DNA of 64,000 bases from the NCBI RefSeq assembly GCF_006716425.1, contig NZ_VFOZ01000002.1:496001-560000 (forward strand), in the 5' to 3' direction. The notes beneath the pieces are model-generated. The model made no database searches and was not told the origin of the DNA. It saw nothing but the letters and a program-made list of their open reading frames with translations. This stretch comes from Actinoallomurus bryophytorum. Its GTDB lineage: Bacteria; Actinomycetota; Actinomycetes; Streptosporangiales; Streptosporangiaceae. Of the stretch, positions 15,713 through 32,733 are shown one piece after another. Both the position numbers and the translations under genes were made by a program. The stretch's first letter is position 1. Every line of letters starts with the position of its first letter.

Positions 15713-17341
15713 ATGCTCGGGTTGATGCAGGACCGTCCGCTGTCATTGCCGCACGTCTTCCGGCGGGTCGAACGCTACTTCAGGCACAAGACCGTGGTGT
15801 CAGGCCGCGTCGGCGGCGAGACGACCATGACATGGGCCGAGGTCTGTACGCGGGTGCGGCGCCTGACCACCGTCCTCGACGAGCTCGGCGTACCCGCCGA
15901 CGCCCGGGTGGGCACATTCGCGTGGAACAGCCACCGGCACGTCGAGCTGTATCTGGCGGTGCCCTGCACCGGGCGGGTGCTGCACACCATCAACCACCGG
16001 CTCTTCGGCGAGCAGATCACCTATATCGTCAACGACGCCGCCGACGACGTGTTGTTCATCGACCGCTCCATCCTGCCTGCCGTCTGGCCCCTGGTCGACT
16101 CCTTCACCACCGTGCGCGCGGTGCTGGTCATGGACGACGGAAGCGACGCCGAGATCCCCGACGACGCCCGCATCCTCGACTACGAAGGCCGTCTCGGCCG
16201 GGCCGAGGACACGGAGCGGGAGTTCACCGTCACCGACGAGAACACCGCCGCCGCGCTGTGCTACACCTCGGGCACCACCGGCAATCCCAAGGGTGTGCTC
16301 TACAGCCACCGCTCCGTGGTCCTGCACGCCGCCCTGTTGCTGATGGTCGATACCTTCGGCATCAACGAACGCGACGTGATCATGCCGATCGTGCCGATGT
16401 TCCACGTCAACGCCTGGGGCCTGCCGTACAGCGCCATGCTCTGCGGGGCCGACCTCGTGCTCCCCGGACCGGCGATGACCCCACGGGAACTGGCGGGAAT
16501 GCTCGCCCGCCACAAGGTCACTTTCGGCGCCGCGGTCGCCACCGTCTGGCGCGGACTCCTGCCCTTGCTCGACCAGCACGACCTGTCAGCCGTACGCCAG
16601 ATCGTGAGCGGCGGCGGCGCGGTCGACGAGGCGCTCACCCGTGCGTACCAGGACGCCATCGGCGTGCCGCTGACCAATGCCTGGGGCATGACCGAAACCA
16701 GCCCGGTGGTCACCACCTCCCGCATCGGCACCGCGCACGACCGGTACACGCGCGAGGAGCGACGCGCACTGCTGGCCACGCCCGGGCCGGCCATCCCGCT
16801 CACCGAGGTCCGCGTCGTCGGCGACGACGGGCGCGAAGCACCCTGGGACGGCCGTACGCCCGGTGAACTGCAGGTCAGCGGCCCCACCATCGCCGCGCGC
16901 TACTTCAGTACGCAGGCCGTCGCAGACGCGGTCACCGACGATGGCTGGCTGCACACCGGTGACGTGGCCACCGTCGACGACCACGGCTACATACGCATCG
17001 TCGACCGCACCAAGGACCTCGTGAAATCGGGAGGTGAATGGATCTCCTCGGTCGAGCTGGAGAACGCCATCATGGACCACCCTGATGTCGCCGAAGCCGC
17101 CGTTATCGGCGTCGCCGATGCCAAATGGGGCGAACGACCTGTGGCCTACGTCGTCGCCCGGCCCGGGGCCACATTGACCGCCGAGACCGTACGCGATCAC
17201 GCCCGCGCCCGCGTGGCCTCCTGGTGGCTGCCCGACCAGGTGTTCTTCCTCGACGAGATACCCAAGACCGCCACCGGGAAGTTCTCCAAACAACGACTCC
17301 GGTCCCTCTACCTCACCGACACCCAGCGATCCGCGCAGTGA
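15713..17341 (+). CDS. Acyl-CoA ligase (AMP-binding, fatty-acid CoA ligase type)
   Basis: Activates a carboxylic acid to its CoA thioester through an acyl-adenylate. The 542-residue protein has the A3 phosphate-loop motif YTSGTTGNPKG at about 184-195, an A5-like NAWGMTETSP motif and an A8-like HTGDVATVDDHGYIRIVDR motif. The A10 lysine lies in KTATGKFSK near the C-terminus. These fit medium/long-chain or aromatic acyl-CoA ligases. The substrate cannot be read from sequence. It is followed after 14 bp by a cupin gene and lies divergent from the PucR regulator, which suggests an inducible catabolic unit. Confidence 0.92.
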   Translation: MLGLMQDRPLSLPHVFRRVERYFRHKTVVSGRVGGETTMTWAEVCTRVRRLTTVLDELGVPADARVGTFAWNSHRHVELYLAVPCTGRVLHTINHRLFGEQITYIVNDAADDVLFIDRSILPAVWPLVDSFTTVRAVLVMDDGSDAEIPDDARILDYEGRLGRAEDTEREFTVTDENTAAALCYTSGTTGNPKGVLYSHRSVVLHAALLLMVDTFGINERDVIMPIVPMFHVNAWGLPYSAMLCGADLVLPGPAMTPRELAGMLARHKVTFGAAVATVWRGLLPLLDQHDLSAVRQIVSGGGAVDEALTRAYQDAIGVPLTNAWGMTETSPVVTTSRIGTAHDRYTREERRALLATPGPAIPLTEVRVVGDDGREAPWDGRTPGELQVSGPTIAARYFSTQAVADAVTDDGWLHTGDVATVDDHGYIRIVDRTKDLVKSGGEWISSVELENAIMDHPDVAEAAVIGVADAKWGERPVAYVVARPGATLTAETVRDHARARVASWWLPDQVFFLDEIPKTATGKFSKQRLRSLYLTDTQRSAQ

Positions 17342-17355
17342 AGGGGCACGACGCC

Positions 17356-17883
17356 ATGACCATCGAACCCCGCCTGATCGTCACCGGCCGTGAGGCCGAC
17401 GGCACCTCCGTGTTCGTGACCGACGAACCCGCCGACCCCACCACCATCGCCGCGTTCCCCGGCACCTTCTACCTGATGTGGGGCACGGACGACGGCGGCA
17501 CCACCGTGGGCACCGAACCCCAAGAACCGAAGGTCTTCCCCTTCTTCCCCGGCCCCGGCGGCACCCGTGCCCTGTTCCTCCGCTTCGCCCCCCACTCCTC
17601 CGAACCCGCCGGTGACCCCGAGGCCATCGCCGCTGAGGGAGCCGAAAAACTCCCCGGCCTGCTCGATGTGTTCGAGCCCGACAACCCCGGCATGCACACC
17701 ACCGACAGCATCGACTACGGAATCTGTCTCGAAGGTGAACTTCACCTCGAACTCGACGACGGCAAAGAAGTCAAACTCGTCCCCGGCACCCTCGTGGTCC
17801 AGCAAGGCACCCGCCACGCATGGCACAACAAGAGCGACACACCGGCACTCATGTGCTACGTCCTCATCGGCGCCGGGCGCTAA
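17356..17883 (+). CDS. Cupin-domain protein
   Basis: A 175-residue single cupin. The beta-barrel lies at about 95-170 with YGICLEGELHLELDDG and a second half VPGTLVVQQGTRHAWHNKSD. The second motif keeps the expected His residues; in the first motif the usual metal His pair is not obvious (DSIDYGIC), so metal-dependent catalysis is uncertain. The N-terminal 90 residues are a less typical extension. Its position directly behind the acyl-CoA ligase suggests a role in the same pathway, either as a small-molecule-binding protein or as an isomerase/dioxygenase-like enzyme. The function is not known. Confidence 0.85.
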   Translation: MTIEPRLIVTGREADGTSVFVTDEPADPTTIAAFPGTFYLMWGTDDGGTTVGTEPQEPKVFPFFPGPGGTRALFLRFAPHSSEPAGDPEAIAAEGAEKLPGLLDVFEPDNPGMHTTDSIDYGICLEGELHLELDDGKEVKLVPGTLVVQQGTRHAWHNKSDTPALMCYVLIGAGR

Positions 17884-18109
17884 CGCCCATCGGCCCACGA
17901 CAGCCGGGGACATTCCAGCACTTGCTTCATCCAGCGCATCGTCCCAGCCGGCCTTGCCCAGCGGTCCAGGTGTCGCGTTGGTGGCCCGACCAGGCGGTGC
18001 GGGTGAAGGGCCGCGGCGGCCGCCCCGATCGTCATCACGCGCAGCCTCACTAATTCGTCGCCGCGGGCGCTCCGGAGAGCCCGGTTTCTTCTGCAGAATC
18101 TGCGGCACT

Positions 18110-18742
18110 GGTTGCGGGGCATTCCATCCAGGAATCCTCACCGTCGGCAGGGGCCCGTTGACCACGTCAGGGGACACGTCTACACCGAATTCCCTCTCAA
18201 CCGCCAGCAATACCATTTCTGCAGAGTTCCAATCATCGAAGTCATCGCTCTCATCGTGAAAGAATCCGACTTCCTACAACGCCCAATTGAGGCGACCAGG
18301 GTTCACTCCCTTCGCCGGCGCGAAGTCCCAGTCAATGTAGGTGGCCAGGATTTCCCCGTCGCGCGCATGTGTGGCCTTGGCCGTGCTGTCCAGCAGCTTC
18401 TGCACGCAGATCGCCTCAGTTCCAACAGACAGGCGGGAAAGTGTTCAACCTGAAACACCTCGTCGGCGAGGTTAGGATCGACCTCAAGCAGGAGAGTCCA
18501 ATCACCGCCGACGTGTACACGCAGGACCGGACGCCATGACCGAAGTGCTGCACCGCCTCGACCGGCATGTACTGCGGATGTGACTCCTGACCGGCAACGC
18601 CCAGCCTGACCAGCACCCCATCCAGCGGGAGGCCGCGCACGCACGTGACGCAATATTGGTCATCTGCCACACAGGAATAAACCTTCGATCGCAGGTTAGT
18701 CACCTCGCCGCTGAACTCATACTCTCTACTCGCCTGCACCAA
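18110..18742 (-). pseudogene. Broken DUF6461-like gene
   Basis: Pieces in three frames line up as one actinomycete DUF6461-like protein. Piece one starts with ATG at 18742 and contains DDQYCVTCVRGLPLDGVLVRLG. A frame change near 18530 leads to VLRVHVGGDWTLLLEVDPN. Another near 18437 leads to LSRLSVGTEAICVQ and then ARDGEILATYIDWDF. An in-frame TAG at 18274-18276 follows, after which the frame reads on sensibly as EVGFFHDE and VEREFGVDVSP up to GPLPTV. That makes two frameshifts plus one nonsense codon (most simply CAG to TAG). The function of the family is not known. The gene lies 65 bp from a dead insertion sequence. The family name rests on motif memory, so the assignment is moderately sure; the decay itself is clearer. 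Confidence 0.68.
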
Positions 18743-18807
18743 TACGGATCAGGCCACCCGGTTCCACGTGACTACCGCGCACCCTCAACATAGTTCACGA
18801 GGAAATA

Positions 18808-18835
18808 TCGGTGTGGGTGCCGAATATCGTGTCAC
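18808..18835 (+). repeat. Left terminal inverted repeat of the IS
   Basis: Begins TCGGTGTGGGTGCC; pairs with 19956-19983 with three mismatches. Confidence 0.88.
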
Positions 18836-18891
18836 AGGGGCTGATCTGGGGTTTCGCTGTGGTGGTGGCTCGGCTCCGGCAGGATCGCAGG

Positions 18892-19954
18892 ATGGCGCTG
18901 CGGTTGTTGTACTTGATCGTCTTACGGGTGTTCGGCTGGATCGCGCTGCTCGCCCGATCACGAGCGTCGAAAGACGCCGAGGTCTTGGTACTGCGTCATC
19001 AGCTCGCGGTACTCCGCCTCCAGGTCGCGACTCCTCGGCCATCGTGGGCGGACCGGGCGATCATTTCCGCGCTCGCGCGACTGCTACCGCGACACCGCCG
19101 GCACAATCTGTTCGTCACCCCACGAACGCTCTTGCGCTGGCATGCCGATCTTGTGAAGCGACGTTGGACCTACCCCAAGCGCGGGCCAGGGCGACCACCG
19201 ATCCGACCCACCATCCGAGCCCTGGTGCTGCGGCTGGCCGCCGAGACCCGGCCTGGGGGTACCGGCACATCGCCGGGCAGATCGCCAGCCTGGGCCGGAA
19301 GGTATCTCCGGCCACCGTTTGAGCGATCTTGAAGAAGGCCGGCTTCGATCCAGCGCCCCGGCGCAGCGACCCGACCTGGGCTCAGTTCCTCAAAGCCCAA
19401 GCATCCGGAATCTTGGCTTGTGACTTCTTCAGCGCCGAGACCGTCATGCTCGCGTGGATGTACTGCTTCGCCGTGGAAGAGCACGCCACGCGGCGGGTCC
19501 ACATCTTGGGTGTCACGGCGCATCCAACCGCCGGCTGGGTCGCCCAGCAAGCCCGCAACCTGATACTCGACCTGGGTGATCGGGCCGGCGACTTCCGATC
19601 TTGATCAGGGACCGGGACAGCAAGTTCACCCGGCTGTTCGATGAGGTGTTCACGACCGAGGGCATCCGCGTGGTGCTCACCGCACCGCAGGCCCCTCGGA
19701 TGAACGCGATCATGGAACGGCGGGTTGGCAGCGTACGCCGCGAACTTCTTGGCCGGATACTCATCATGAACGAACGCCACCTGCGCACGGTCCTCGCCGA
19801 GTACGAAACCTACTTCAATGAACATCGCCCGCACCGGGCCCTGAACCAGGCCAGCCCGCTGCAAGCGCTGCCCGATCCGGTCGACGCCGACATCAAGGTC
19901 ACCCGACGGGACTGACTCGGCGGCCTCTTACCCGAATACGCCCAGGTCGCATGA
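18892..19954 (+). pseudogene. Inactivated DDE transposase (integrase core)
   Basis: The frame opens with MALRLLYLIVL and a helix-turn-helix region (LVLRHQLAVLR). It breaks near 19253 at a run of five G, continues in a second frame (GYRHIAGQIASLGRK) and meets a TGA at 19321-19323 where relatives usually have Trp. It then reads on as [19 protein letters not shown] (first catalytic Asp) and [15 protein letters not shown] second shift near 19600 leads to IRDRDSKF (second Asp) and MNAIMER (catalytic Glu). A TGA at 19913-19915 appears to replace an Arg codon before a final LGGLLPEYAQVA. With so many lesions, programmed frameshifting is unlikely and the element is dead in cis. Confidence 0.85.
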
Positions 19955-19955
19955 G

Positions 19956-19983
19956 GTGACGCAATATTTGGCACCCACACCGA
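19956..19983 (-). repeat. Right terminal inverted repeat of the IS
   Basis: Ends GGCACCCACACCGA on the plus strand, the exact reverse complement of the outer 14 bases of the left end. Confidence 0.88.
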
Positions 19984-20138
19984 CGCTATGGCTAACGGTT
20001 AGCTCTCAGCACCAACTCAGCACGGGGCCGGGCAGCAACGGGAAACGATCAGGACTGACGGGCATTCGCCGATGGCCGTGTGACCCGCCTTCAACCCAAG
20101 AGGTGGCCATCCGACGATGCCTCTGACCTGCGAAAAGG

Positions 20139-21368
20139 CTACCGGACCGGCAGTCCGGTGATCGTGCGGCCGATGACGAGGCGCTGGATCTCCGACGTGC
20201 CCTCGAAGATGGTGAAGATCTTGCTGTCGCGGTGCCAGCGTTCGACCGGATAGTCGCGGGTGTAGCCGTTGCCGCCCAAAACCTGGATGGCGTCCTCGGT
20301 CACCTTCACGGCCGTCTCGCCGGCGTGGAGTTTGGCCATGGAGCCCTCCGCGCTTTCGAAGTCCTTGCCGTTGCGCGCCATCCATGCCGCGCGCCAGACC
20401 AGGAGGCGTGCCGCGTCGACCGACATCTTCATGTCGGCCAGTTTGAACGCGACCGCCTGGAAGTCGCCGATCTTGCGGCCGAACTGCTCGCGTTCGCGGG
20501 CGTAGTCGAGGGCGTACTCGTACGCGGCGCGGGCGATGCCCACGGCCATGGCGCCTACCACCGGGCGGGACGCCTCGAAGGTTCGCATCGCGGCCTGGCC
20601 CGCGGAGCGCTTGCCCTCGCGGGCCCGGGCCAGTCGCTCGTCCAGTTTCTCCTTGCCGCCGACCAGGCACGCGCCCGGGACGCGTACGCCGTCCAGGATC
20701 ACCTCGGCGGTGTGGGACGCGCGGATTCCGTGCTTCTTGAACTTCTGGCCCTGGGAGAGGCCGGGCGTGCCCGGGGGGACGATGAAGTTCGCCTGGCCGC
20801 GGGAGCCCAGGGAGGAGTCGACCGAGGCGACGACCACGTGCACGTTCGCGATCCCGCCGTTCGTGGCCCATGTCTTGGTGCCGTTCAGGACCCATTCGTC
20901 CTTGGCCTCGTCGTAGGAGGCGCGGGTACGGATCGCCGAGACGTCCGAGCCCGCGTCCGGCTCCGAGGCGCAGAACGCGCCGAGCTTGACGTCATCGGCG
21001 GTGCCGAACATCTGCGGGACCCACTCCCCCGTCTGCTCGGGCGTACCGGTCGCGGCCACCGAGACGGCGGCCAGGCCGGAGCCCACCAGTGACAGGCCGA
21101 TCCCCGCGTCACCCCAGAAGATCTCCTCGAAGGCGACCGGGATGCCCAGCCCGGAGGGCTCGAACCACTGCTGGGCGAAGAAGTCGAGCGAGTACAGGCC
21201 GATCTTGGCCGCCTCCTGGAGGATCGGCCACGGCGTCTCTTCGCGCTCGTCCCACTCCTCGCCGGCCGGCCGGATGACGTCCTTGGCGAACTCGTGCACC
21301 CATTCCTTGACCTGCTGGATGTCCTCGGGCAGTTCGAGGGAGAAGGCCGAGGCGCCGTCGTCGGACAT
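20139..21368 (-). CDS. Acyl-CoA dehydrogenase
   Basis: FAD-dependent alpha,beta-dehydrogenation of an acyl-CoA. The 409-residue protein has the normal three-part fold. The N-terminal helical part is at about 15-130, the beta domain has the signature FCASEPDAGSDVSAIRTRA (about 150-168), and the C-terminal helices end in the dehydrogenase signature QVLGGNGYTRDYPVERWHRD and FEGTSEIQR. The start MSDDGASAF was preferred over longer forms because GGAGG lies at the right distance. The acyl chain length is not evident. It is a single-gene unit; the nearest acyl-CoA ligase is 3 kb away across the dead IS. Confidence 0.93.
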   Translation of the reverse strand: MSDDGASAFSLELPEDIQQVKEWVHEFAKDVIRPAGEEWDEREETPWPILQEAAKIGLYSLDFFAQQWFEPSGLGIPVAFEEIFWGDAGIGLSLVGSGLAAVSVAATGTPEQTGEWVPQMFGTADDVKLGAFCASEPDAGSDVSAIRTRASYDEAKDEWVLNGTKTWATNGGIANVHVVVASVDSSLGSRGQANFIVPPGTPGLSQGQKFKKHGIRASHTAEVILDGVRVPGACLVGGKEKLDERLARAREGKRSAGQAAMRTFEASRPVVGAMAVGIARAAYEYALDYAREREQFGRKIGDFQAVAFKLADMKMSVDAARLLVWRAAWMARNGKDFESAEGSMAKLHAGETAVKVTEDAIQVLGGNGYTRDYPVERWHRDSKIFTIFEGTSEIQRLVIGRTITGLPVR

Positions 21369-22137
21369 GTTTCCTCCGTCTCGGCCGATCCGCAGGGAGC
21401 GGGCCGGCCGACTATTGGACTCGCTGTCACTTAAGCGTAGCCCCCCAGGCGTTACCGGCGGTAACATCGTGGCCGGATTCACAGTCGAGCGGCTCCAGTA
21501 GCGGCCCGCCCATGCCGCCGAGATCACGGCGTCGCCTCGTAGCCCCGCCAGGTAATCCACCGGCGAGCGAATTGAATGCCGAAGTCGAACTTTGCCGACC
21601 GGAGAAGAAGGTTGAACGAGCATCTATCCCGCCGACACTTGAAGCGCACCAAAGGCGGACGGGCCGCCATCCTCAGGCCGCCGGACAAGGCCGAGTTCAC
21701 CCGGGGGCCATCGCCAGACGATTGGCGATCTGTCAAGTAACAGATTGCCCTGCGAGCGGTGACCACTCAACTCCGGAGCGGATGAACGCGATAGGCCGAC
21801 ATACAAAAAACCATCCGGGCGAATGCGGCTTACCATACCGCGCTACGGGGGCGACGGCATGGAGCATCGATAGAGGTCAACGGCCATATTCGGCGCCGTT
21901 ACAGTAGAGCTGAGTGATCTACGTCACAGACCACTTTACGGTCGACCGATCTCCTCATTACGAGCCCTTGCCTCTCCGCTAGAGATAGGTATAGTGCTGG
22001 GTTGTTCACCCTATTTCCGGGATAGGCGCGGTACGCGAAAGGTTGTGATGCCGCGGGGTCATTGAAGAAGGCTTGGTAATGGCAGTACATCCTATCCGGC
22101 GCATTTTCTATTTATGATGTTTCGAAAGGGAGAAGTC
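21369..22137. other. Long non-coding stretch upstream of the peptide cluster
   Basis: No gene with recognisable features on either strand. The last 250 bases are visibly richer in A and T than the surroundings. They probably contain the promoter of the six-cysteine peptide gene. A short inverted repeat CCTAT/ATAGG lies near 22012-22026. No clear sigma-factor motif could be assigned with confidence. Confidence 0.5.
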
Positions 22138-22305
22138 ATGAGCCGTCTCATTGATCGCATGATCGAACGGATCGTTCCCCAGACGACCGCGTCCGCCTGC
22201 CAGGGCCTCTACTTCTGCAACTCCGCAGGACACTCGGGCTACTGGTACCGCTTCTGCTGCCCGCAGACCGGCTGTGAGTGGGACAAGGTCAGAAGCACCT
22301 GCTGA
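22138..22305 (+). CDS. Six-cysteine precursor peptide, knottin-like (novel candidate)
   Basis: A 55-residue peptide. Residues 1-20 form a charged, amphipathic leader (MSRLIDRMIERIVPQ) ending in ASA. The remaining 35 residues hold six Cys at 21, 27, 40, 41, 46 and 55, a C-X5-C-X12-CC-X4-C-X8-C pattern, and are rich in aromatic residues (YWYRF). The C-C-CC-C-C order is that of inhibitor-cystine-knot toxins, although the second loop is longer than usual. Ala18-Ser-Ala20 before Cys21 fits an AxA signal-peptidase site. AAGGGAG sits 8 nt upstream of the ATG. The gene leads a cluster encoding redox proteins, an ABC exporter and a signal peptidase. I do not recognise the family; whether it is an antimicrobial, signal or structural peptide is not known. 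Confidence 0.75.
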   Translation: MSRLIDRMIERIVPQTTASACQGLYFCNSAGHSGYWYRFCCPQTGCEWDKVRSTC

Positions 22306-22320
22306 CCTGACCGTCAGAGC

Positions 22321-22355
22321 GTGCCGGACGGTGGTGTGACGCCGCCGTCCGGCGC
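22321..22355 (+). terminator. Hairpin between peptide gene and processing operon (attenuator candidate)
   Basis: A 14-bp stem with two G-T wobbles (22321-22334 with 22342-22355) and a 7-nt loop. It would allow strong expression of the peptide gene and lower read-through into the enzymes. Confidence 0.65.
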
Positions 22356-22376
22356 CGGCGAGGAGAAGACACAGGC

Positions 22377-22883
22377 ATGGAATACGTGAGGGCGGGTTGT
22401 GCCAGCTTGATCGCCTTGGTGTTCGTGGCCTCGGCGGTCTCGAAGATGCGGGACTTCGACGGGTTCGCACGATCGCTGCCCGCGCTTGCGACGGTGAGAC
22501 CCGGCCTGGTCCGGCCGCTGGCGATGGTGGTCGTCGTCGCGGAGGCGGTGACCCCGGTTCTCTTGGTGATCCCGCCGGTGACCTCCTACGGCTTCGCGCT
22601 CGGCTTCGTGCTGCTCGCCGCGTTCACTACCGCCATCGCCGTCGCCGTCCGGCGCGGGCGGCATGCCCCCTGCCGATGCTTCGGAGTGTCCAGCACGCCG
22701 GTCGGCCCCCGTCATCTGGTCCGCAACACCGCGTTGGCGTTCATGGCCGCGCTCGGTGGCCTGGCGCCCCAGCAGATCCCACCGCCGGCCGGTCTGGCGG
22801 TGGCGGCCGCCGCCGGTCTCATCGGGGCGATCCTGATCGTCTCCTTCGACGACATCGTCGATCTGTTCGCGAGGAGTTCTTGA
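22377..22883 (+). CDS. MauE/DoxX-like redox-associated membrane protein
   Basis: A 168-residue integral membrane protein with about four helices and the MauE-like cysteine motif PCRCFG (Cys99, Cys101). Known relatives support disulfide formation in methylamine dehydrogenase maturation. Here it would pass electrons between the membrane and the thioredoxin-like protein encoded next. GAGGAG precedes the ATG, and its stop overlaps the next start (TGATG). The redox role is inferred from family and context; no methylamine dehydrogenase gene is present. Confidence 0.88.
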   Translation: MEYVRAGCASLIALVFVASAVSKMRDFDGFARSLPALATVRPGLVRPLAMVVVVAEAVTPVLLVIPPVTSYGFALGFVLLAAFTTAIAVAVRRGRHAPCRCFGVSSTPVGPRHLVRNTALAFMAALGGLAPQQIPPPAGLAVAAAAGLIGAILIVSFDDIVDLFARSS

Positions 22884-23416
22884 TGCCCTACCTTGCCGCC
22901 GCCGTCGTGCTGCTCGGTGTGCTGTGCGTGTTGAACCTGCTGCTCACGATCGGGATCCTGCGCCGGATGAGGGCGCAGGGCGACCGGTCCGGGCGGCATC
23001 CCGGGCCCCTGTTCGCGCTGGGGCCAGGCTCGCCCATCGGCGAGTTCGCCGCCGTGACGACCACCGGTGAGCCGGTGTCCCACGACACCTTGACCGGCAC
23101 GGTGGGATTCTTCTCCGCGGCCTGTGAGGCATGCCACGTCATGCTTCCGCGTTTCGTCGAGCACGCGCGTCAGGCGGGCCGCGAGAACATGCTGGCGGTC
23201 GTCGGCGGCGCCGACGCCGAATTGGTGGAGACCCTCACCCCGGTCGCCCGGGTCGTCGTGGCCGACCTCGACGGCGGACCCGTGGCGCGAGCGTTCCAGA
23301 ACACCTGGACTCCGGCGCTCTACCTGGTCGGGGATGACCACAGGGTCGCCGCCGCGGCGGCCACGATCGAGGAACTACCCACGCTCACGTACGACCGCGT
23401 CGCCGGCCGGGGGTGA
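22883..23416 (+). CDS. Membrane-anchored thioredoxin-like protein with CEAC site
   Basis: A 177-residue protein with one N-terminal membrane helix (about 4-26) and a TlpA/MauD-like thioredoxin fold facing outward. The active site CEAC (Cys81, Cys84) follows the strand VGFFSA, and the cis-Pro strand is probably TWTPALYLVG. With the MauE-like partner it forms a likely thiol-disulfide pair acting on the six-cysteine peptide. It overlaps the MauE gene by 1 bp and abuts the exporter gene, so the three are co-transcribed. Confidence 0.87.
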   Translation: MPYLAAAVVLLGVLCVLNLLLTIGILRRMRAQGDRSGRHPGPLFALGPGSPIGEFAAVTTTGEPVSHDTLTGTVGFFSAACEACHVMLPRFVEHARQAGRENMLAVVGGADAELVETLTPVARVVVADLDGGPVARAFQNTWTPALYLVGDDHRVAAAAATIEELPTLTYDRVAGRG

Positions 23417-25252
23417 GTGTTGAGCGCCGCCCCGGACGGGGACCTGCGGATCGGCGCACGGGAGCTGTGCGCCTCCGCCGCGGAGGCCGTATCGCTCATC
23501 TGGCGGGCCGCCTCGGCGAACGTAGCGGTGTTCCTGCTGGCGACTGTGGCCGCGGCCGCGGCGCCGATCGCGACCGCGTGGTCGACCAAGCTCGTGATCG
23601 ATCGGTTGACGACTCCGCACGGCGCGGTCGGCGGCCTGGCGCTCGTACTGATCACCACCGGACTCGGCGCCGCCGCCCTCCCGGTCCTGGTCCAGTACCT
23701 GAGGGGTCAGATCGGGCGGTCGGCGGGTCTGACCGCGACCGAACAGCTGTTCACCGCGGCCGAACGCCAGGTGGGCCTGCGTAACTTCGAGAATCCGGCC
23801 TTCCAGGACCGGCTCCGGCTCGCCCAGGAGGGCGTCGCCCGCATCGCCGAGATCGTGGACGGCCTCGGCAGCACTCTCGGTGGTGTGCTCGCCCTCACCG
23901 GGTTCATCGGTTCGCTGCTGATCCTCAGTCCGCCCATGACGATCGTGGTGCTCGCGGCCGCCATCCCAGCGCTCGTCTCCGAGATGCTCCTCTCCCGGCG
24001 CCGTTCGGCGATGGAATGGAGCATCGAACAGTTCTACCGGCGAGAGTTCTTCTACAGCCAGCTGCTCACCGGAGTCGCCGCGGCCACGGAGATCCGTTTG
24101 TTCGGCATCGGGGCGTTCCTGCGCTCCCGGATGATGGACGAACGGCGCAGCGCCAACGCGGCCAACCGGCGGATGGACCTTCGAGAGGTCCGCACGCAGG
24201 GTGGGCTGACAGTACTGAGTGCGACGGTGGCCGGTGTCGGCCTGTGGTGGGCGATCACGGCGGCCCGGCGTGGCGCGCTCAGCATCGGGGACGTCTCGAT
24301 GTTCCTCGCGGCCGTCATCGGCGTGCAGTCCGCCCTGTCGACGCTGACCGCGGCGATCTCCGGCGGGCAGGCGAGGCTGCTGGCCTTCACCCACTATGTC
24401 GCCGTGGTCCGGGCCGAGTCCGATCTCCCCCAAGCGCGACAGGGAGTTCCCCCGCGGTTGCGGCAGGGCATCGAACTGCGGGACGTGTGGTTCCGTTACA
24501 GCGACGACCACCCCTGGGTGCTGCGGGGGGTGAGCCTCACGATCCCCTCCGGTCGCGCCGTCGCGCTCGTCGGCCTGAACGGCGCGGGCAAGAGCACGCT
24601 CGTCAAGCTCCTGTGCCGGATGTACGACCCGACCCGAGGACGGATCCTCTGGGATGGCGTCGATCTGCGGGACATCCCTCCCGCGCTCCTGCGCGAACGG
24701 ATCAGCGCCGTTTTCCAGGACCATATGAATTACGACATGACGGCCGAGGAGAACATCGCCATCGGCGACCTGACCGCGCTGGGCGACCCAGGACGGCTCC
24801 AGGAGGCGGCCGGCCGTGCGGGGATCCACGACAGGCTCACCACGCTGCCCCGGGGTTACGCCACCCTGCTCAGCCGCATCTTCGTCGTCGGTACGGACAA
24901 GGACGACCCGGTGACGGGCGTCGTCCTGTCCGGCGGGCAGTGGCAACGCCTCGCACTGGCCCGCGCCTTCGTCCGGAACGACCGGGATCTGATGATCCTC
25001 GACGAACCCAGCTCCGGTCTGGATCCCGAGGCGGAGCACGAGATCCACACCCGGATGCGAGAACACCGCGGCGGCCGTACGAGCCTGCTGATCTCCCATC
25101 GGCTCAGCGCCGTCCGTGACGCCGACCACATCGCGGTCCTGGACGGCGGCCGCATCACCGAGCACGGGTCGCACGACGCCCTGCTCGCCGCCGACGGCAG
25201 CTATGCCCGGCTCTTCCGGCTCCAGGCCGCCGGATACCAGGAGGCGCTGTGA
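23417..25252 (+). CDS. ABC exporter, fused membrane and ATPase domains
   Basis: A 611-residue half-transporter: six-helix membrane domain (about 35-330) and ATPase domain (about 350-600). The Walker A motif is GLNGAGKST at about 388-396, the signature is LSGGQWQRL and the Walker B is LMILDEP, followed by an H-loop (LISHR). There is no N-terminal C39 peptidase domain, so it cannot cut a leader itself; the signal peptidase encoded next could do that. The GTG start lies immediately after the upstream stop. It probably works as a homodimer exporting the six-cysteine peptide; that substrate is inferred from the cluster. Confidence 0.9.
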   Translation: MLSAAPDGDLRIGARELCASAAEAVSLIWRAASANVAVFLLATVAAAAAPIATAWSTKLVIDRLTTPHGAVGGLALVLITTGLGAAALPVLVQYLRGQIGRSAGLTATEQLFTAAERQVGLRNFENPAFQDRLRLAQEGVARIAEIVDGLGSTLGGVLALTGFIGSLLILSPPMTIVVLAAAIPALVSEMLLSRRRSAMEWSIEQFYRREFFYSQLLTGVAAATEIRLFGIGAFLRSRMMDERRSANAANRRMDLREVRTQGGLTVLSATVAGVGLWWAITAARRGALSIGDVSMFLAAVIGVQSALSTLTAAISGGQARLLAFTHYVAVVRAESDLPQARQGVPPRLRQGIELRDVWFRYSDDHPWVLRGVSLTIPSGRAVALVGLNGAGKSTLVKLLCRMYDPTRGRILWDGVDLRDIPPALLRERISAVFQDHMNYDMTAEENIAIGDLTALGDPGRLQEAAGRAGIHDRLTTLPRGYATLLSRIFVVGTDKDDPVTGVVLSGGQWQRLALARAFVRNDRDLMILDEPSSGLDPEAEHEIHTRMREHRGGRTSLLISHRLSAVRDADHIAVLDGGRITEHGSHDALLAADGSYARLFRLQAAGYQEAL

Positions 25253-25755
25253 CCATCGTCGTCCCGGTCATCGGGTCGCTGCTGGCGGCCGGGCTGCTGG
25301 TGCTGACGCTTCGCCGTCGTTTCCTCGTCACCGTCGTCGACGGCGCGAGCATGGAACCGGCGCTGCGATCCGGCGACCGCGTCCTGGTACGCAGGACCAA
25401 ACGGGTCCGCCTGGGCCAGATCGTCGTCCTGGAGTTCCCCGATCTCCCGAGCGGGCGGGCACCGGTGACCGCACGAGGCCACCGCCAACTCCTCCTCAAA
25501 CGGGCCGTGGCGGTGCCGGGCGACCGGCTGCCCGCCGAGTGGGAGGACCCGGACCTCGACGCGATAGCCGGCACGGTCGTGCCGCCCGGGTCGGTCGTGG
25601 TGCTCGGCGACAACCGTGCGACGAGCTGGGACTCACGCCACTACGGCTTCGTACGCCGTGAGCGGCTGGTGGGCGTGATGATCCGGCACCTGCCCCGATC
25701 AGGCGTGGCCGAGGTGGAGCCGGGCTCCGAGCGAGCGCGCGAGCATCACGCCTAA
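25249..25755 (+). CDS. S26 family signal peptidase
   Basis: A 168-residue type-I signal peptidase with one N-terminal membrane helix. The catalytic Ser34 is in DGASMEPAL, the general base Lys84 in LLLKRAVAVPGD, and a GDNR box (VLGDNRATSWDSRHYG) is present. It is short compared with housekeeping SipS/LepB proteins, which fits a dedicated role. The start overlaps the exporter stop by 4 bp. The AxA site before the first Cys of the peptide at 22138 makes that peptide the natural substrate; this is inference. Confidence 0.9.
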   Translation: MTIVVPVIGSLLAAGLLVLTLRRRFLVTVVDGASMEPALRSGDRVLVRRTKRVRLGQIVVLEFPDLPSGRAPVTARGHRQLLLKRAVAVPGDRLPAEWEDPDLDAIAGTVVPPGSVVVLGDNRATSWDSRHYGFVRRERLVGVMIRHLPRSGVAEVEPGSERAREHHA

Positions 25756-25921
25756 CGCCCGGAACCAGTCCAGGCGCGCCCAAGGCAGCCGTACCCCGGC
25801 GAAGAGCCTGTCTTGATTGATAAGTTTCCAACCGTCAGTGACGGCACAGGTGCGTAAGTGGTAACTTATTGCGCGCCTCGCCCTGTGATTCCGGGGTCAC
25901 TTCTGAAGATTGGGAGCCTGA

Positions 25922-27181
25922 GTGGGTCTGCTCCGTGGCCGAAATGCCCGTGCTCCCCGCGCGCTGACGTACGGCGCCCTCCTGCTCGCCGTCGTCATGG
26001 TCGCCGCGTTGACGGCCATTCTGTGGCCCGGTGGACCACAGACCCACGTCACCGCCTACTTCGAGCGGGCGACCGGCGTCTATCCCGGCACCGAGGTACG
26101 CATCCTGGGCGTCAAGGTCGGCAAGGTCACCAAGGTGACGCCCAAGGGCAACATGGTCGAGGTCAAGATGGCGTGGACGGCCGAGCACAAGGTGCCGGCC
26201 ACCGCCCAGGCCGTGATCATCGTGCCGTCCCTGGTCGCCGACCGCTACATCCAGTTCACGCCGGTCTACCGCGGTGGCGCGGCCCTCAAGGACGGCGCCA
26301 CGCTGTCGCTGTCCAGCACGGCCGTGCCGGTCGAGCTCGACGACGCCAACTCGGCGGTCAACGACCTGACCAAGGCCCTCGGCCCGCAGGGCGCCAACGC
26401 CAACGGCTCGTTGTCCAAGCTCCTCTCGACGAGCGCGCAGACCGTCGACGGGCAGGGCGAGAACTTCAAGCAGACCCTCCAGGACCTGTCCGACGTCAGC
26501 CGGGTCCTGTCGGACAACCGCGGCAACGCCACCCAGACGGTCCAGAACCTCGCCAAGATCACCCAGGCGATGGCCGCGAGCGACCGTCAGATCCGCTCGT
26601 TCTCCCAGAACCTCGCCTCGGTCTCGAGCACCCTCAACGGCGAGAAGGCCGAGCTGCGGGCGGCGGTCAAGAGCCTGTCGGTGGCGCTGCGCGAGGTCGC
26701 AGGCTTCGTCAAGCAGAACAAGTCCGAGATCGCCGCGAACGTCCAGGGGCTCGCCCAGATCACCGGGGTCCTGGTCAAGGAGAAGGCCGCGCTGCAGCAG
26801 TTCCTGGACAAGGCGCCGGTCGCCGCGTCCAACGCTCTCAGCGTCTATGACCCCCAGGACGGGTCCCTGCACGCCCGCCTCAACCTGCAGCAGTCACAGA
26901 ACATCGCGATGTGGCTGTGCTCGCTGGCCTACTCGCTCGGCGCCCCGCCCAAGCAGTGCGAGACGCTGCTCAAGCCGCTCAACGCGCTCGGCATCCCGCT
27001 GAGCAAGCTGAGCCTGGACGCGTCGTCACTGACGACGGCGACGACGCAGTACGACGTCGTGCCGCCGCCCGCGGACGCGTACGGCGGCAACGCCCCGGCG
27101 CAGGGGACGAGCGGCAAGAGCACCGCCCGCACCAACCCGGACCCGACGTTCGGCGGGATCCTGTCCCCGCCGGGCAACTGA
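25922..27181 (+). CDS. Orphan MCE-family (MlaD-like) protein
   Basis: A 419-residue protein. One membrane helix (about 16-34) is followed by an MCE/MlaD domain (about 40-118; GVYPGTEVRILGVKVGKV), a long helical and coiled-coil region (about 140-300), and a C-terminal part with two Cys (CSLAYSLGAPPKQC) ending in a low-complexity tail. MCE proteins form periplasm-spanning lipid shuttles with YrbE permeases and an Mkl-type ATPase. None of those genes is here, and the usual six-gene mce array is absent, so this is a solitary member. GGGAG lies upstream of the GTG. The substrate is not known. Confidence 0.88.
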   Translation: MGLLRGRNARAPRALTYGALLLAVVMVAALTAILWPGGPQTHVTAYFERATGVYPGTEVRILGVKVGKVTKVTPKGNMVEVKMAWTAEHKVPATAQAVIIVPSLVADRYIQFTPVYRGGAALKDGATLSLSSTAVPVELDDANSAVNDLTKALGPQGANANGSLSKLLSTSAQTVDGQGENFKQTLQDLSDVSRVLSDNRGNATQTVQNLAKITQAMAASDRQIRSFSQNLASVSSTLNGEKAELRAAVKSLSVALREVAGFVKQNKSEIAANVQGLAQITGVLVKEKAALQQFLDKAPVAASNALSVYDPQDGSLHARLNLQQSQNIAMWLCSLAYSLGAPPKQCETLLKPLNALGIPLSKLSLDASSLTTATTQYDVVPPPADAYGGNAPAQGTSGKSTARTNPDPTFGGILSPPGN

Positions 27182-27187
27182 GCCGGG

Positions 27188-28186
27188 TCAGACCGTCGAG
27201 CCGACGTAGTCCGGCACCACGATCGCCGGTGGCCGCTCGTCGACCGCCACGCTGCTGGTCCGCACCTCGTGTCCGTCTCCGTCGCGACGGAACTGCGTCA
27301 GCGTGGTGGACGGCGGCTCCAGCCGTACGACCCTGCCCTGCCGTTCGAGCCGTGACCACGCGGTCTGCATGATCTGGCCGGACATGCCGCCGAGCGCCTC
27401 GGCGGACTGGTGCCGGTGCAGGCGTACGCCGAGGTCGACCTGGGCGATCGCGTCCAGTCCGGCGAGTTCGAGCACGTCGATCAGCATGCCGAGCTCGACG
27501 CCGTACCCGGTGACGAAGGGCAGGCGTTCGAGCACCTCGCGCCGGCCGGCGTACTCGCCCGACAGAGGCTGGAGGACTCCCGCCAGCACGGGCCAGTGCA
27601 TGTTGATCAAAGGCCGTGCGACGAGCTCGGTCACCCGGCCGCCGCCGTGTGCCACGGTCGTGCCGCCGCTGACGTACGGGCGGTCGTAGCAGGCCTTGAC
27701 GTAGCGGACGGACGGGTCGGTCAGCAGCGGGCCGAGCAGTCCGGTGACGAACGACGACGAGAACTCGCGCAGGTCGGCGTCCACGAAGACGATCACGTCA
27801 CCGCGCGCGACGTGCATCGACTTCCACAGCGCCTCTCCCTTGCCGGACATCGGTGGGAGCTGGGGCAGCACCGCGTCCTGGGCGACCACCCGGGCTCCGG
27901 CGGCCGCCGCCACCTCGGCGGTGTCGTCGACCGACCGGGAGTCGATGACCACGATCTCGTCCACGAGCGGCGCGCTCTCGACGAGGTCACGGCGGATCGC
28001 GCCGACGATCTCACCGACCGTCTCGCGTTCGTTCCGTGCGGGCAGGACGACACTCACCGTCGTGTCACCCTTCGCCGCGAGCAGCTTGTCGACCGGCCAG
28101 TCCGCAGCCGAGCTCATGCGGTTGCGCAGCCATTCCTGGACCTGAGGCAGCAACGGGTCCCCCTCTCGTTTTTGCGACTCGGCCAT
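27188..28186 (-). CDS. gpgS: Glucosyl-3-phosphoglycerate synthase
   Basis: Transfers glucose from an NDP-glucose donor to 3-phosphoglycerate, the first step towards glucosylglycerate and methylglucose lipopolysaccharides. The 332-residue protein is a GT81-type glycosyltransferase. Features are VLPARNERETVG (47-58), EIVVIDSRSVDDT (77-89), GKGEALWKS (115-123) and the metal-binding DADLR (136-140). The later Arg/His region VRLHRHQ also fits. MAESQ was chosen as the start; in-frame extensions overlap the ramB-like gene. It converges tightly on the MCE gene. Confidence 0.9.
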   Translation of the reverse strand: MAESQKREGDPLLPQVQEWLRNRMSSAADWPVDKLLAAKGDTTVSVVLPARNERETVGEIVGAIRRDLVESAPLVDEIVVIDSRSVDDTAEVAAAAGARVVAQDAVLPQLPPMSGKGEALWKSMHVARGDVIVFVDADLREFSSSFVTGLLGPLLTDPSVRYVKACYDRPYVSGGTTVAHGGGRVTELVARPLINMHWPVLAGVLQPLSGEYAGRREVLERLPFVTGYGVELGMLIDVLELAGLDAIAQVDLGVRLHRHQSAEALGGMSGQIMQTAWSRLERQGRVVRLEPPSTTLTQFRRDGDGHEVRTSSVAVDERPPAIVVPDYVGSTV

Positions 28187-28239
28187 TGACCCCCGCCGCC
28201 GTTTCACCGCCGTTTCGGCAACGTCACACGCAGGCAACG

Positions 28240-29709
28240 TCATCCCGACGCGTGCTGGTCGAGGAACGCGTACACGTCCGCCTCGTCCACTCCGGGGAAC
28301 GCCCCGCGCGGCAGAACGGCCAGGACGTGGGAGTGCGCACGGGCCGAGGGCCACGCGTAGCCCTGCCAGCGCTGGGCGAGATCGGCCGGGGGCAGCTGGC
28401 AGCAGTCGCCGTCCGGGCAGGCGGACCTGACCCTCCGGTTGGTCTCGCGGCCGCGGAACCAGCGGGAGTGCTCGAACGGGACGCCGAGGGTGATCGCGAA
28501 CTCGCGTTCGTGGCTCGGGTCGATGTGAGAGAGACACCAATACGTGCCGGTCGGCGTGTCGGTGTACTGGTAGTAGATCGAGAAGCGGTCGTCGGCCGAG
28601 AACACGTGCCTCCCGGCCCACTCGCGGCACATCCGTTGCCCCTCGATGGCCCCGTGCTCGTCGGAGGGGAAGATCAGCCCGTCGTTGGCGTACGCCTTGT
28701 AGATCGTGCCGCTCTCGTCGTTCTTGGTGAAGTGCACCGGCAGCTCGAGGTGGTGCGTGGCCAGGTTGGTGAAGCGGTGCGCGGCCATCTCATAGGACAC
28801 TGAGAAGACGTCGCACAGGTCCTCGATGGACAGCTCCCGGTCGGCCTTGGCCTCCTGGAGATAGGGCACGACGGTCCGTTCGGGCAGAAGCGTCGCGGCG
28901 GCGTAGTAGTTGGCCTCGACCCGCTGGCGGAGGAAGTCGCCGAAGTCCTTGGGCACCGCGTGGCCGAGGGCGATGTGACCGAGGGTCTGCAGGAGGATCG
29001 TGCGCGGCGTGTGCATGCCGAGCTGCTGGCGTTCGAGGTAGATCCGCCGGTTGCGCAGGTCCGTGACGGACCGCACCGAGCGCGGCAGATCCTGCACGTA
29101 GCGAAGAGTGAAGCCGAAGTAGGTGACGAGGGCGAGCAGCATGCCCTGCGAGAGCGCACCGGCCCGGTAGCCGACGGCCTCCAGGGTCTTGGCGGCGCTC
29201 TCCTCGATCTCACCGAAGTAGTTGCCGCGCTCGTGCATCTGCTGGCGCAGCTCCGCGTTGGCCTTCCGCGCGTCCTCGGGGCTCGCGGTCGGCTTGGTGC
29301 GGCTCCGCCTGACCTCGTCGTACATGGCGAGGAGGTGTTCGAGCACGTCATTGGGCACCCGCTTGCCGATCTTCAGGTGCGGCAGGCCGAGGCTCTGGTA
29401 GAGCGGGTCGCGCTGGGCCTCCTCGATCGCGATCTCGAGCTGGGCACGCCGGTTCGGGGGCTGCTTGCGCAGGAGCTCCTCGATCGGCACCTCGAGGGCG
29501 GTGGCGAGCCCCTGGAGCAGCGAGAGCTTCGGCTCGCGCCGGCCGTTCTCCAGCAGCGAGAGCTGCGAAGGCGCCCTGCCGACACGTTTTCCCAGGTCAG
29601 ACAGGGTGTAGCCGTGAACCTTACGAAGATGACGCAGTCGCTGACCGAACGTCACAAGGTCTAGACCATTCGTCAAGTTCAGCGGTTCTTCTTTTTGAAA
29701 GCCCGTCAC
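28240..29709 (-). CDS. ramB: RamB/ScfR-type regulator of acetate metabolism
   Basis: A 489-residue regulator. The XRE helix-turn-helix is at about 20-80 ([21 protein letters not shown]), an IrrE/ImmA-type peptidase-like domain lies in the middle ([13 protein letters not shown]), and a C-terminal DUF2083-like domain contains Cys residues ([11 protein letters not shown]). In Corynebacterium and Mycobacterium, RamB controls isocitrate lyase and acetate genes; here the gene is divergent from isocitrate lyase across 113 bp, the same pairing. The start is uncertain: the GTG used lacks a clear ribosome site, and a later GTG at VTFGQRL is possible. Confidence 0.88.
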
Positions 29710-29822
29710 AGGTTCACGCTAGCAGAATTTCGGGCGTTCTTCTTGTTACTTACCGGTTCACTAACACTGCCCTCACACGGAGACTGAGGACATACGCACC
29801 CAGGGGACGACATAGGAGGGCA

Positions 29823-31124
29823 ATGGCAATGACTGACCGTCGCCTCAAGGGCGCAGCCAAGGAGCTGCAGCAACAGTGGGAGACCGACGCACGCTGGGCG
29901 AACATCGAGCGTGACTACACCGCCGAGGACGTCGTACGGCTGCGGGGGTCGGTGCAGGAGGAGTACACGCTCGCCCGTCTGGGCGCCGAGCGTCTCTGGA
30001 AGCTGCTGCACGAGGACGATTACATCAACGCACTGGGCGCGCTGACCGGAAATCAGGCGGTTCAGCAGGTGCGCGCCGGCCTGAAGGCCATCTACCTGTC
30101 GGGCTGGCAGGTCGCGGCGGACGCGAACCTCGGTGCGCAGACCTACCCGGACCAGAGCCTCTACCCGGCCAACTCCGTGCCGGCCGTCGTGCGCCGCATC
30201 AACAACGCGCTGATGCGCGCCGACCAGATCACCTGGTCGGAGGGCGACGACGACGCGCCGTACTGGCTCGCGCCGATCGTCGCCGACGCCGAGGCCGGCT
30301 TCGGCGGAGTGCTCAACGCGTTCGAGCTGATGAAGGGCATGATCGCCGCGGGTGCGGCGGGCGTGCACTGGGAGGACCAGCTCGCCTCGGAGAAGAAGTG
30401 CGGCCACCTCGGCGGCAAGGTCCTGATCCCGACCGGGCAGCACATCAAGACGCTGAACGCCGCCCGCCTCGCCGCGGACGTGTCCGGCGTGCCATCGCTG
30501 ATCGTCGCGCGGACCGACGCCCAGGCCGCGACCCTGATCACGAGCGACGTCGACGAGCGCGACCAGGAGTTCGTCACCGGCGAGCGCACCGCGGAGGGCT
30601 TCTACCGGGTGCGCAACGGCATCTCCTCGTGCATCGCCCGCGGCCTGGCGTACGCGCCGTACTCCGACCTTCTGTGGATGGAGACCGGCACGCCGGACCT
30701 GGACGTCGCCCAGGAGTTCGCCGAGGCGATCAAGGCGGAGTACCCGGACCAGATGCTCGCCTACAACTGCTCGCCGTCCTTCAACTGGAAGAAACACCTC
30801 GACGACTCGACGATCGCCAAGTTCCAGCGCGAGCTGGGACACATGGGGTACACGTTCCAGTTCATCACGCTGGCCGGCTTCCACTCGCTCAACCACTCGA
30901 TGTTCCACCTCGCCAAGGGCTACGCCGAGGACGGCATGACGTCCTACGTGGAGCTGCAGGAGGCGGAGTTCGCCGACGAGGCGGACGGCTACACCGCGAC
31001 CAAGCACCAGCGCGAGGTCGGGACGGGCTACTTCGACCTGGTCAGCACGGCGATCTCGCCGGACTCCTCAACGGTGGCGTTGAAGGGCTCCACCGAGGAG
31101 GAGCAGTTCGTTAAGGCTCACTGA
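29823..31124 (+). CDS. aceA: Isocitrate lyase
   Basis: Splits isocitrate into glyoxylate and succinate, the first step of the glyoxylate shunt, in the cytoplasm. The 433-residue protein is collinear with bacterial AceA. The signature [10 protein letters not shown] (191-200) contains the catalytic Cys193, and VHWEDQL and [11 protein letters not shown] active-site segments are also seen. GGAGG stands close to the first ATG; a second ATG two codons on is equally well placed. It diverges from the RamB-type regulator, so acetate or fatty-acid control is likely. A strong terminator follows. Confidence 0.96.
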
Positions 31125-31145
31125 CGCACTCGTCCAGGTCGTTGG

Positions 31146-31174
31146 AGATCCCCCGGTACTTTGCCGGGGGATCT
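31146..31174 (+). terminator. Terminator of the isocitrate lyase gene
   Basis: Perfect 11-bp stem (AGATCCCCCGG with its complement) around a 7-nt loop, starting 22 bp after the stop. Confidence 0.85.
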
Positions 31175-31287
31175 TCTACTTGTGGCGCTATGCGGTCAAT
31201 GCCACTTTGTGTAAGCCTTACGGTCAGAGGGCCCTATCGTCAGATAGTGGTCTTTGTCCTGTTCGATCCTCAGTAGTAGGGACCGAC

Positions 31288-32733
31288 ATGCGCAAAACCC
31301 GCCGACTGCTCGCCATCGGCACGACGACCGTCTGCCTTGCCGCGATCACTCCGGCCGCGGTCGCCGAGAAAAGACCGCAGTTCACCCCCGGTGCCAACGG
31401 CATCGGAGACCCGTACTTCCCTCTCGAGGGCAACGGGGGTTACGACGTCCAGCACTACGATCTCGCCCTGTCCTACGACCCGCAGACCAAGCGACTCGAC
31501 GGCACGAACACGATCACCGCGCGGGCGACGCAGAACCTGTCCCGTTTCGACCTGGACCTGCAGCAGCTCGACGTCAGCAAGGTCACCGTGGGCGGGCGGA
31601 ACGCGAAGTTCACCCGCGACGGCCAGGAGCTGCGGATCACGCCGCGGAAGGGGCTGCGGAAGAACTCGCGCTTCGTCGTCGCCGTGACGTACGGCGGCGT
31701 GCCCCAGACGATCGTCGGCTCGCCGGTCGTGTTCGGCTCGCCGTACGGGTTCGTGCACACCGACGACGGCTTCTTCACGGGTGACGAGCCGAACGCCTCC
31801 TCGACCTGGTTCCCCAGCAACGACCACCCGAGCGACAAGGCCACCTACACGTTCCACGTGACGGTGCCCAAGGATCGCTCCGTGATCGCCAACGGGAATC
31901 TCGTGTCGCAGCGGACCAAGGGCGACAAGACCACCTGGGTGTGGGACGAGAAGTACCCCATGGCGACCTACCTGGCCACGGCCGACATCGGCCAGTGGCA
32001 GTTCAAGAACGGCAGGACGCCGGGCGGGATCCGGGAGACGGTCGCGGTGGACCCGAAGCTGGTCGGGCGCGACCCGAACCACCCGGACCCGATGGCCTTC
32101 TTCTGGGACACCACCGCCCAGGTGACGGACCTGTGGTCCAAGACCTTCGGCAAGTACGCCTTCGACTCCACCGGGGCCATCGCCGACCTGGCGACGTACA
32201 ACGGGCAGGCGATCGGCTTCTCGCTGGAGACCCAGACCCGGCCGCTGTACTCCGACGTGCGCAGCGCGGGGACGATCGCGCACGAGCTCGCCCACCAGTG
32301 GTTCGGTGACGCGGTCTCGGTGCAGGACTGGAACGACATCTGGCTGAACGAGAGCTTCGCGACGTTCGCCGCCAACCTGTACACGGAGAAGAACGGCGGC
32401 GCACCGGTGCACGACACGGCCCTAGCCGTGTACAACCGGCACAGCGCGACCGACCCGTGGTGGAACGTCAAGATCGCCGACCCGCAGCGCGACACCATGT
32501 TCCACGACCGCGTCTACAGCGGTGGCGGCATGGTGCTGGAGTTCCTGCGCGAGAAGATCGGTGACGACAAGTTCTTCGCCCTGCTGCACACCTGGTACGA
32601 GCAGCACAAGTACGGCAACGGCAGCACCGAGCAGTTCACGGCGCTGGCGAGCAAGATCTCCCACCAGGACCTGAGCTCGTTCTTCCAGACCTGGCTCTAC
32701 TCGACCGGCAAGCCCGCCCTCCCGACGAGCTGA
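31288..32733 (+). CDS. Secreted M1 family metallo-aminopeptidase
   Basis: Zinc aminopeptidase probably acting outside the cell. The 481-residue protein has a signal peptide (about 1-26, AVAEK), an N-terminal beta domain (about 50-230) and a catalytic thermolysin-like domain. Zinc ligands are His332, His336 (HELAH) and Glu355 (NESFA), and the substrate-anchoring motif appears as IGFSLETQ rather than the classical GAMEN. It lacks the long C-terminal helical domain of full-size aminopeptidase N, as is usual for short actinomycete members. AGGG precedes the ATG. Single-gene unit with its own terminator. Confidence 0.92.
   Translation: MRKTRRLLAIGTTTVCLAAITPAAVAEKRPQFTPGANGIGDPYFPLEGNGGYDVQHYDLALSYDPQTKRLDGTNTITARATQNLSRFDLDLQQLDVSKVTVGGRNAKFTRDGQELRITPRKGLRKNSRFVVAVTYGGVPQTIVGSPVVFGSPYGFVHTDDGFFTGDEPNASSTWFPSNDHPSDKATYTFHVTVPKDRSVIANGNLVSQRTKGDKTTWVWDEKYPMATYLATADIGQWQFKNGRTPGGIRETVAVDPKLVGRDPNHPDPMAFFWDTTAQVTDLWSKTFGKYAFDSTGAIADLATYNGQAIGFSLETQTRPLYSDVRSAGTIAHELAHQWFGDAVSVQDWNDIWLNESFATFAANLYTEKNGGAPVHDTALAVYNRHSATDPWWNVKIADPQRDTMFHDRVYSGGGMVLEFLREKIGDDKFFALLHTWYEQHKYGNGSTEQFTALASKISHQDLSSFFQTWLYSTGKPALPTS

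Follow-up and report, generated by a model that had tools for sequence, protein, structure and literature searches.

The window, a stretch of 64,000 nucleotides from the Actinoallomurus bryophytorum genome, encodes on its forward strand a 55-residue precursor peptide (22138..22305, with the ATG at 22138 and the stop codon TGA at 22303-22305). In-frame ATGs also occur upstream, at 22114 and 22117; the start at 22138 is favoured because of the conserved N-terminus of the peptide and the sequence GGGAG (22128..22132), a likely ribosome-binding site identified by eye 5 bases 5' of the ATG. The first 20 residues form a leader that is not hydrophobic (22138..22197) and that scores 31.2 bits against a leader profile from which its own locus was left out. 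The leader ends in ASA (residues 18-20, 22189..22197), the proposed cleavage site of an S26 peptidase, with Pro at -7 as in the family pattern P-x3-[AV]-x-A. The remaining 35 residues form the core (22198..22302), with the pattern C-X5-C-X12-CC-X4-C-X8-C. Re-reading the ORF places Cys at residues 21, 27, 40, 41, 46 and 55, the spacing described in the first-pass annotation, which had also reported that the family was not one it recognised; indeed, Pfam and NCBIfam matches were not identified for the window peptide (E 0.1, with second scans at E 1). A comparison of the peptide with plasmid records gave no match.

The peptide gene is the first of a five-gene cassette, followed by genes for MauE, a MauD-like thioredoxin, an ABC transporter and an S26 peptidase (all on the forward strand), which bears out the proposed tie between the six-Cys peptide and a MauE-redox-ABC-S26 operon. 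The interval first annotated covers the precursor alone, and the whole unit extends over about 22124-25755. The MauE family membrane protein (22377..22883) was identified with PF07291 (E 2.3e-28). The next gene (22883..23416) encodes a protein with an N-terminal hydrophobic helix and a CEAC motif, for which there was no Pfam match above cut-off. Its AlphaFold2 model (pLDDT 87, from nine sequences) has thiol-disulfide isomerase, CcmG, ResA and DsbE folds among its Foldseek matches (best E 1.9e-6). We predict a thioredoxin fold for this protein, and the second maturation gene is named MauD-like because the model resembles known structures of thiol-disulfide oxidoreductases, CcmG and ResA among them. 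The ABC transporter comprises a membrane part and an ATPase (23417..25252; PF00005, E 2.6e-30), and its PF00664 match, at 27.8 bits, is slightly below the cut-off of 28. A C39 peptidase domain was not matched on this transporter, nor on those of two other loci (L097 and L094, scanned from tblastn ranges). The last gene (25249..25755) encodes a protease of the S26 signal-peptidase family with an N-terminal hydrophobic segment (PF10502, E 1e-22; TIGR02227, 80.4 bits against a cut-off of 47). Integrase-like pieces are found 5' of the cassette (18811-19915), of which the last alone (19601-19912) matches a Pfam model (rve_3, PF13683, E 3.2e-14). The neighbouring genes, for an acyl-CoA dehydrogenase (20139-21623, reverse strand) and an Mce/MlaD-type protein (25922-27181, forward strand), are unrelated to the cassette.

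A scan of genome contigs identified nine loci of four named genera that encode proteins 75-84% identical to the window peptide (Actinomadura parmotrematis, Sphaerisporangium corydalis, six Amycolatopsis and Actinoallomurus spadix). Thus, the peptide gene is real, beyond what chance would produce. In the ten-row core alignment, six of the six Cys and 26 of the 35 core columns are invariant, and a more distant relative (L092, 67% identical) retains all six, one of its loops being a residue shorter. In each of the eight comparisons made (with L001-L008; the A. spadix locus, L009, was left out), synonymous difference exceeds nonsynonymous difference in both leader and core. The first-pass annotation had named two observations that would speak against it, loss of the Cys positions in homologous loci and loss of the peptide where the downstream genes are conserved. 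The Cys are kept in 9/9 named loci, and among these close relatives the peptide was not seen to be lost either, the whole operon being present in eight of the nine. At the A. spadix locus, the peptide gene is followed directly by those for the ABC transporter and S26 peptidase. The same genome encodes a MauE-MauD pair elsewhere (63% and 58% identical to the proteins of the window), unaccompanied by other cassette genes, and this pair could act in trans for the A. spadix peptide.

DNA similarity between the window and L001-L008, which are Actinomadura, Sphaerisporangium and Amycolatopsis records, begins at 22124-22126 (12-14 bases before the ATG) and stops at 25688-25718, near the end of the S26 gene, in 8/8 loci. 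Outside the cassette, window positions 16000-32000 have no DNA similarity to L001-L008 at E 1e-5 in the stretches compared; the Amycolatopsis loci have flanks in common among themselves. Since the similarity is confined to the cassette, the cassette appears to have been transferred as a unit from lineage to lineage. Besides the peptide, the shared block consists of MauE, the MauD-like protein, the ABC transporter and the S26 peptidase alone, and no evident immunity gene was identified in it.

Searching 394 genomes of the class with a profile of the peptide identified, in 14 of them, weak relatives that share the leader and differ in the core. We also compiled a set of loci in which the peptide was ignored, comprising all 51 further places with a match to the MauD-like protein (E 1e-8) in the same 394 genomes; these fall in 27 genomes. 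For each locus, a leader-only profile was trained on leaders of other loci less than 60% identical, and so holds no core information. It scores at least 11 bits in 46 of the 51 loci (the best small ORF with 4-10 Cys each time; L090, L100, L113, L130 and L139 lack a leader-type precursor), compared with a best score of 10.7 bits over 67 loci in a reversed-DNA control. The seed leaders were drawn from the same loci, a circularity that leaving one locus out and the 60% filter lessen and do not abolish.

With the peptide-seeded loci included, 61 of 67 loci yielded 69 precursors, defined by a leader of at least 9 bits and at least 4 Cys, with no filter on Cys parity (L009 and L146, both within the 67-locus set, are one place). 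Two Cys-free ORFs at 9.5 and 10.6 bits were dropped, and a precursor in L162 and an aberrant one in L139 stand outside the 69. Convincing Pfam or NCBIfam matches were not identified for 47 diverse precursors, the weak ones reaching E 0.021 at best and involving one member each. A whole-precursor profile matched in only four of 396 genomes of the phylum, that of the window among them, and its two matches outside the class run across in-frame stops. This route is insensitive, so the distribution of the precursors is only roughly known.

A profile search of the window genome (150 of 466 candidates scored) identified two precursors, that of the window and that of a second cassette about 110 kb away (L091, G000:C2:401500-414500; precursor at 4605-4787, forward strand), which has six Cys in another pattern. 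The same genome contains a third MauE-MauD-ABC set (L090, G000:C1:7264500-7278000), which lacks both S26 and a recognisable precursor. At six loci (L106, L108, L114, L118, L122 and L131), two or three different precursors accompany a single maturation set.

All 69 leaders end in P/L-x3-[A/V]-x-A, with the P variant in 68. The leader is conserved against highly varied cores, which form 40 clusters. Six core Cys occur in 47 precursors, eight in 19, ten in two and four in one; the number is thus even in 69/69 precursors and in 40/40 core clusters (55% identity), as disulfide pairing predicts. Background small ORFs with 4-10 Cys from the same DNA include 642 with even and 368 with odd numbers (64% even). 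The parity count refers to the core and not to the whole ORF; over the whole ORF the total is odd in two cases, one because of a single leader Cys (L114:5586-5756) and one because of a Cys in an over-long upstream part (L003). In 39 of the 40 clusters the last Cys lies at most three residues from the C-terminus.

Features of a Sec signal were looked for in the leaders. None of the 69 contains ten consecutive residues without D, E, R, K, H, N or Q, and the best 12-residue hydropathy mean is 0.19 for the window leader, with a median of 0.62 and a maximum of 1.75 over the 69 leaders; the membrane anchors of the window S26 and MauD-like proteins, for comparison, reach 2.5 and 3.1. Because the leaders are non-hydrophobic and have no such run, their sequences make it unlikely that they act as Sec signals.

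Presence of the precursor and of S26 is associated across the 51 MauD-anchored loci, with both in 45, neither in four and one discordant locus of each kind (L093 has a precursor and lacks S26, L100 the reverse; Fisher p 9.8e-5). In the wider set, 5/51 loci thus gave no leader-type precursor beside the MauD-like gene, four of them also lacking S26, and here the expectation of the first-pass annotation holds less strictly than among the close relatives. One of these loci encodes an 8-Cys small ORF just 5' of MauE (L139:7036-7218, reverse strand), whose leader is without AxA, at a locus without S26. The co-occurrence, together with this locus, which has neither S26 nor AxA, links the AxA leader to S26. 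Motifs were also counted in the partner proteins: CxxC is present in 62 of 64 MauD-like proteins (absent from L136 and L138), CxCF in 59 of 61 MauE relatives and S-[MLF]-x-P in 60/60 S26 relatives. A narrow lysine-motif pattern matched 25 of the 60 S26 relatives and a GD[NH] pattern 51, both counts coming from pattern matching. Some loci are incomplete (L009/L146 without MauE or MauD-like protein, L142 without MauE or ABC transporter, L145 with S26 alone, L144 with none of the four; L109 and L110 without a full ABC transporter within 6.5 kb, and L108, a cut stretch, without MauE). These absences are uncertain, as some stretches end at contig ends.

The window gene very probably encodes an exported, disulfide-locked mini-protein. 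We infer that the product is exported and disulfide-bonded, where it is cut, how the proteins lie in the membrane and in which order the steps follow; the scheme is this. The leader, 20 residues long and non-hydrophobic, would route the precursor to its dedicated ABC transporter. Cleavage by the S26 peptidase would take place after Ala20 (AxA, with Pro at -7), so that the mature peptide would start at Cys21; its calculated monoisotopic mass would be 4048.61 Da with three disulfides and 4054.66 Da when reduced. Outside the membrane, the three disulfides would be formed and sorted by MauE together with the membrane-anchored MauD-like thioredoxin. The usual substrates of S26 enzymes are Sec-type signal peptides, and the window enzyme could act on some other substrate. 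We nevertheless regard the scheme as a whole, an exported disulfide-rich mini-protein whose gene heads a self-contained maturation cassette, as probable.

The mature peptide is most likely a putative extracellular effector with a conserved target, either an inhibitor or an antimicrobial. The near-invariant core of the window peptide suggests one conserved target, and the unlike cores of other cassettes suggest many. On balance, we lean towards the view that secreted disulfide mini-proteins of actinomycetes form a class as yet without a name, which would be defined by removal of an AxA leader via the cassette S26 and by ABC export, and display-like in that one machine would serve varied cores under an even-Cys rule. 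The leader profile and the even-Cys rule provide a simple handle on bacterial disulfide-rich peptides missed by Pfam and NCBIfam, and the cassette opens a clear test of an S26 peptidase as the leader peptidase of an ABC-exported peptide.

The first-pass annotation had called the peptide knottin-like. The C-C-CC-C-C order of its six invariant Cys stands, but the cystine-knot fold does not follow: the AlphaFold2 model of the core, built from ten near-identical rows, has a pLDDT of 62 and a pTM of 0.29. This model was too weak to use, and assignment as a knottin by fold was dropped. The three strands that it draws favour the alternative that the mature peptide is a genuine inhibitor cystine knot (I-IV, II-V, III-VI) and works as the knottins of animals do. 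A fold search with the model gave nine PDB matches with E values of 6.9 and above (none below 0.001), and no title among them names a knottin. PDB sequences gave no match to the family profile at E 10, and the window peptide alone gave three unrelated ones at E 0.53 or worse. The Cys order also speaks for a knot: it is the commonest among the 69 precursors (26/69) and is found in 8 of 25 six-Cys clusters, when shuffling gives 2.2 (8 was reached in 4 of 2000 shuffles). However, 17 of those 25 clusters have other orders, there are members with 4, 8 and 10 Cys, and among all 40 core clusters C-C-CC-C-C comes second, with 8 against 15 for C-C-C-C-C-C, and thus does not define the family. The second loop of the window peptide has 12 residues, which is long for a knottin. 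We therefore consider a true cystine knot doubtful, though it fares best among the alternatives.

If the peptide were not an effector but an autoinducer or developmental signal, this would explain why the core of the window subfamily is near-invariant across four named genera, as expected for one fixed receptor. We judge this role unlikely, given that no receptor, kinase or regulator is encoded in the block shared with the window and that the cores of other cassettes are quite different.

That the peptide is incidental, with MauE, the MauD-like protein and S26 working in a different pathway (methylamine, cytochrome c or other), is very improbable: the link of MauE and MauD to methylamine dehydrogenase maturation (stated in PMC7794033) and the 4/51 MauD-like loci with neither S26 nor a leader-type precursor favour it, but in L001-L008 the conserved block includes the peptide, 46/51 MauD-like loci have a precursor, and the MauA model PF02975 is above cut-off in 0/197 genomes, including that of the window (13 genomes have sub-threshold matches), with the sensitivity of this last search in doubt because no control genome was above cut-off either. 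A methylamine role of the cassette is likewise unlikely, and the preferred reading remains that of an exported mini-protein with its own maturation genes.

Several known systems share parts of this arrangement. MauA is itself a small Cys-rich substrate with MauE and MauD partners, and in this the two systems are alike. A MauA mini-domain was considered, from a likeness to the YRxCC region of that protein; at E 1, none of 47 precursors was matched by the MauA model, and the genomes searched offered no genuine MauA for comparison. Animal and plant knottins have the C-C-CC-C-C order in common with the window peptide, and no sequence or fold match to them was found. In sublancin, a disulfide bacteriocin exported by an ABC transporter, the leader, the exporter and the peptide's own thiol-disulfide oxidoreductases are encoded in one operon. 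Bacteriocins of this type resemble the window cassette in combining leader, ABC exporter and thiol-disulfide enzymes, but they use a GG leader and a C39 domain in place of an AxA leader end and a cassette S26. Neither feature of double-glycine/C39 exporters is present in the window, where the transporter has no C39 match; the leaders end in [AV]-x-A. The maturation protease of nickel superoxide dismutase is also of the S26 type and encoded beside a short leader-bearing substrate. Its model, TIGR02754, matches the window S26 more weakly (E 1.8e-12, under cut-off) than TIGR02227, which fits better, and the window substrate differs in being a 35-residue core paired with an ABC exporter.

On cystine knots, PMC13352647 offers general statements with references, and a term search of the main text of a review (PMC10885120) gave no mention of S26, signal peptidase or AXA. 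Among the literature matches listed, there was no later study of clusters of MauE with Cys-rich precursors. The closest precedent is decRiPPter (PMC7794033), whose section on MauE describes three candidate RiPP families with MauE, one of them also with MauD, in Streptomyces. As in the window cassette, MauE there lies beside a short Cys-rich precursor with transporter and peptidase genes, for which those clusters had been filtered (PMC7794033). The precursors of those families have at least 8 Cys, whereas that of the window has 6; 8 or 10 occur in 21 of our 69. The leader motif, AxA, S26 and Cys parity are not described in that section, a comparison that concerns descriptions and not sequences. 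Its authors read MauE and MauD as precursor-modifying genes outside methylamine metabolism, a suggestion made in that section without a test (PMC7794033). Our findings support such a role for MauE and MauD-like proteins. MauE clusters with Cys-rich precursors had thus already been flagged by decRiPPter, and the window cassette is of the same kind.
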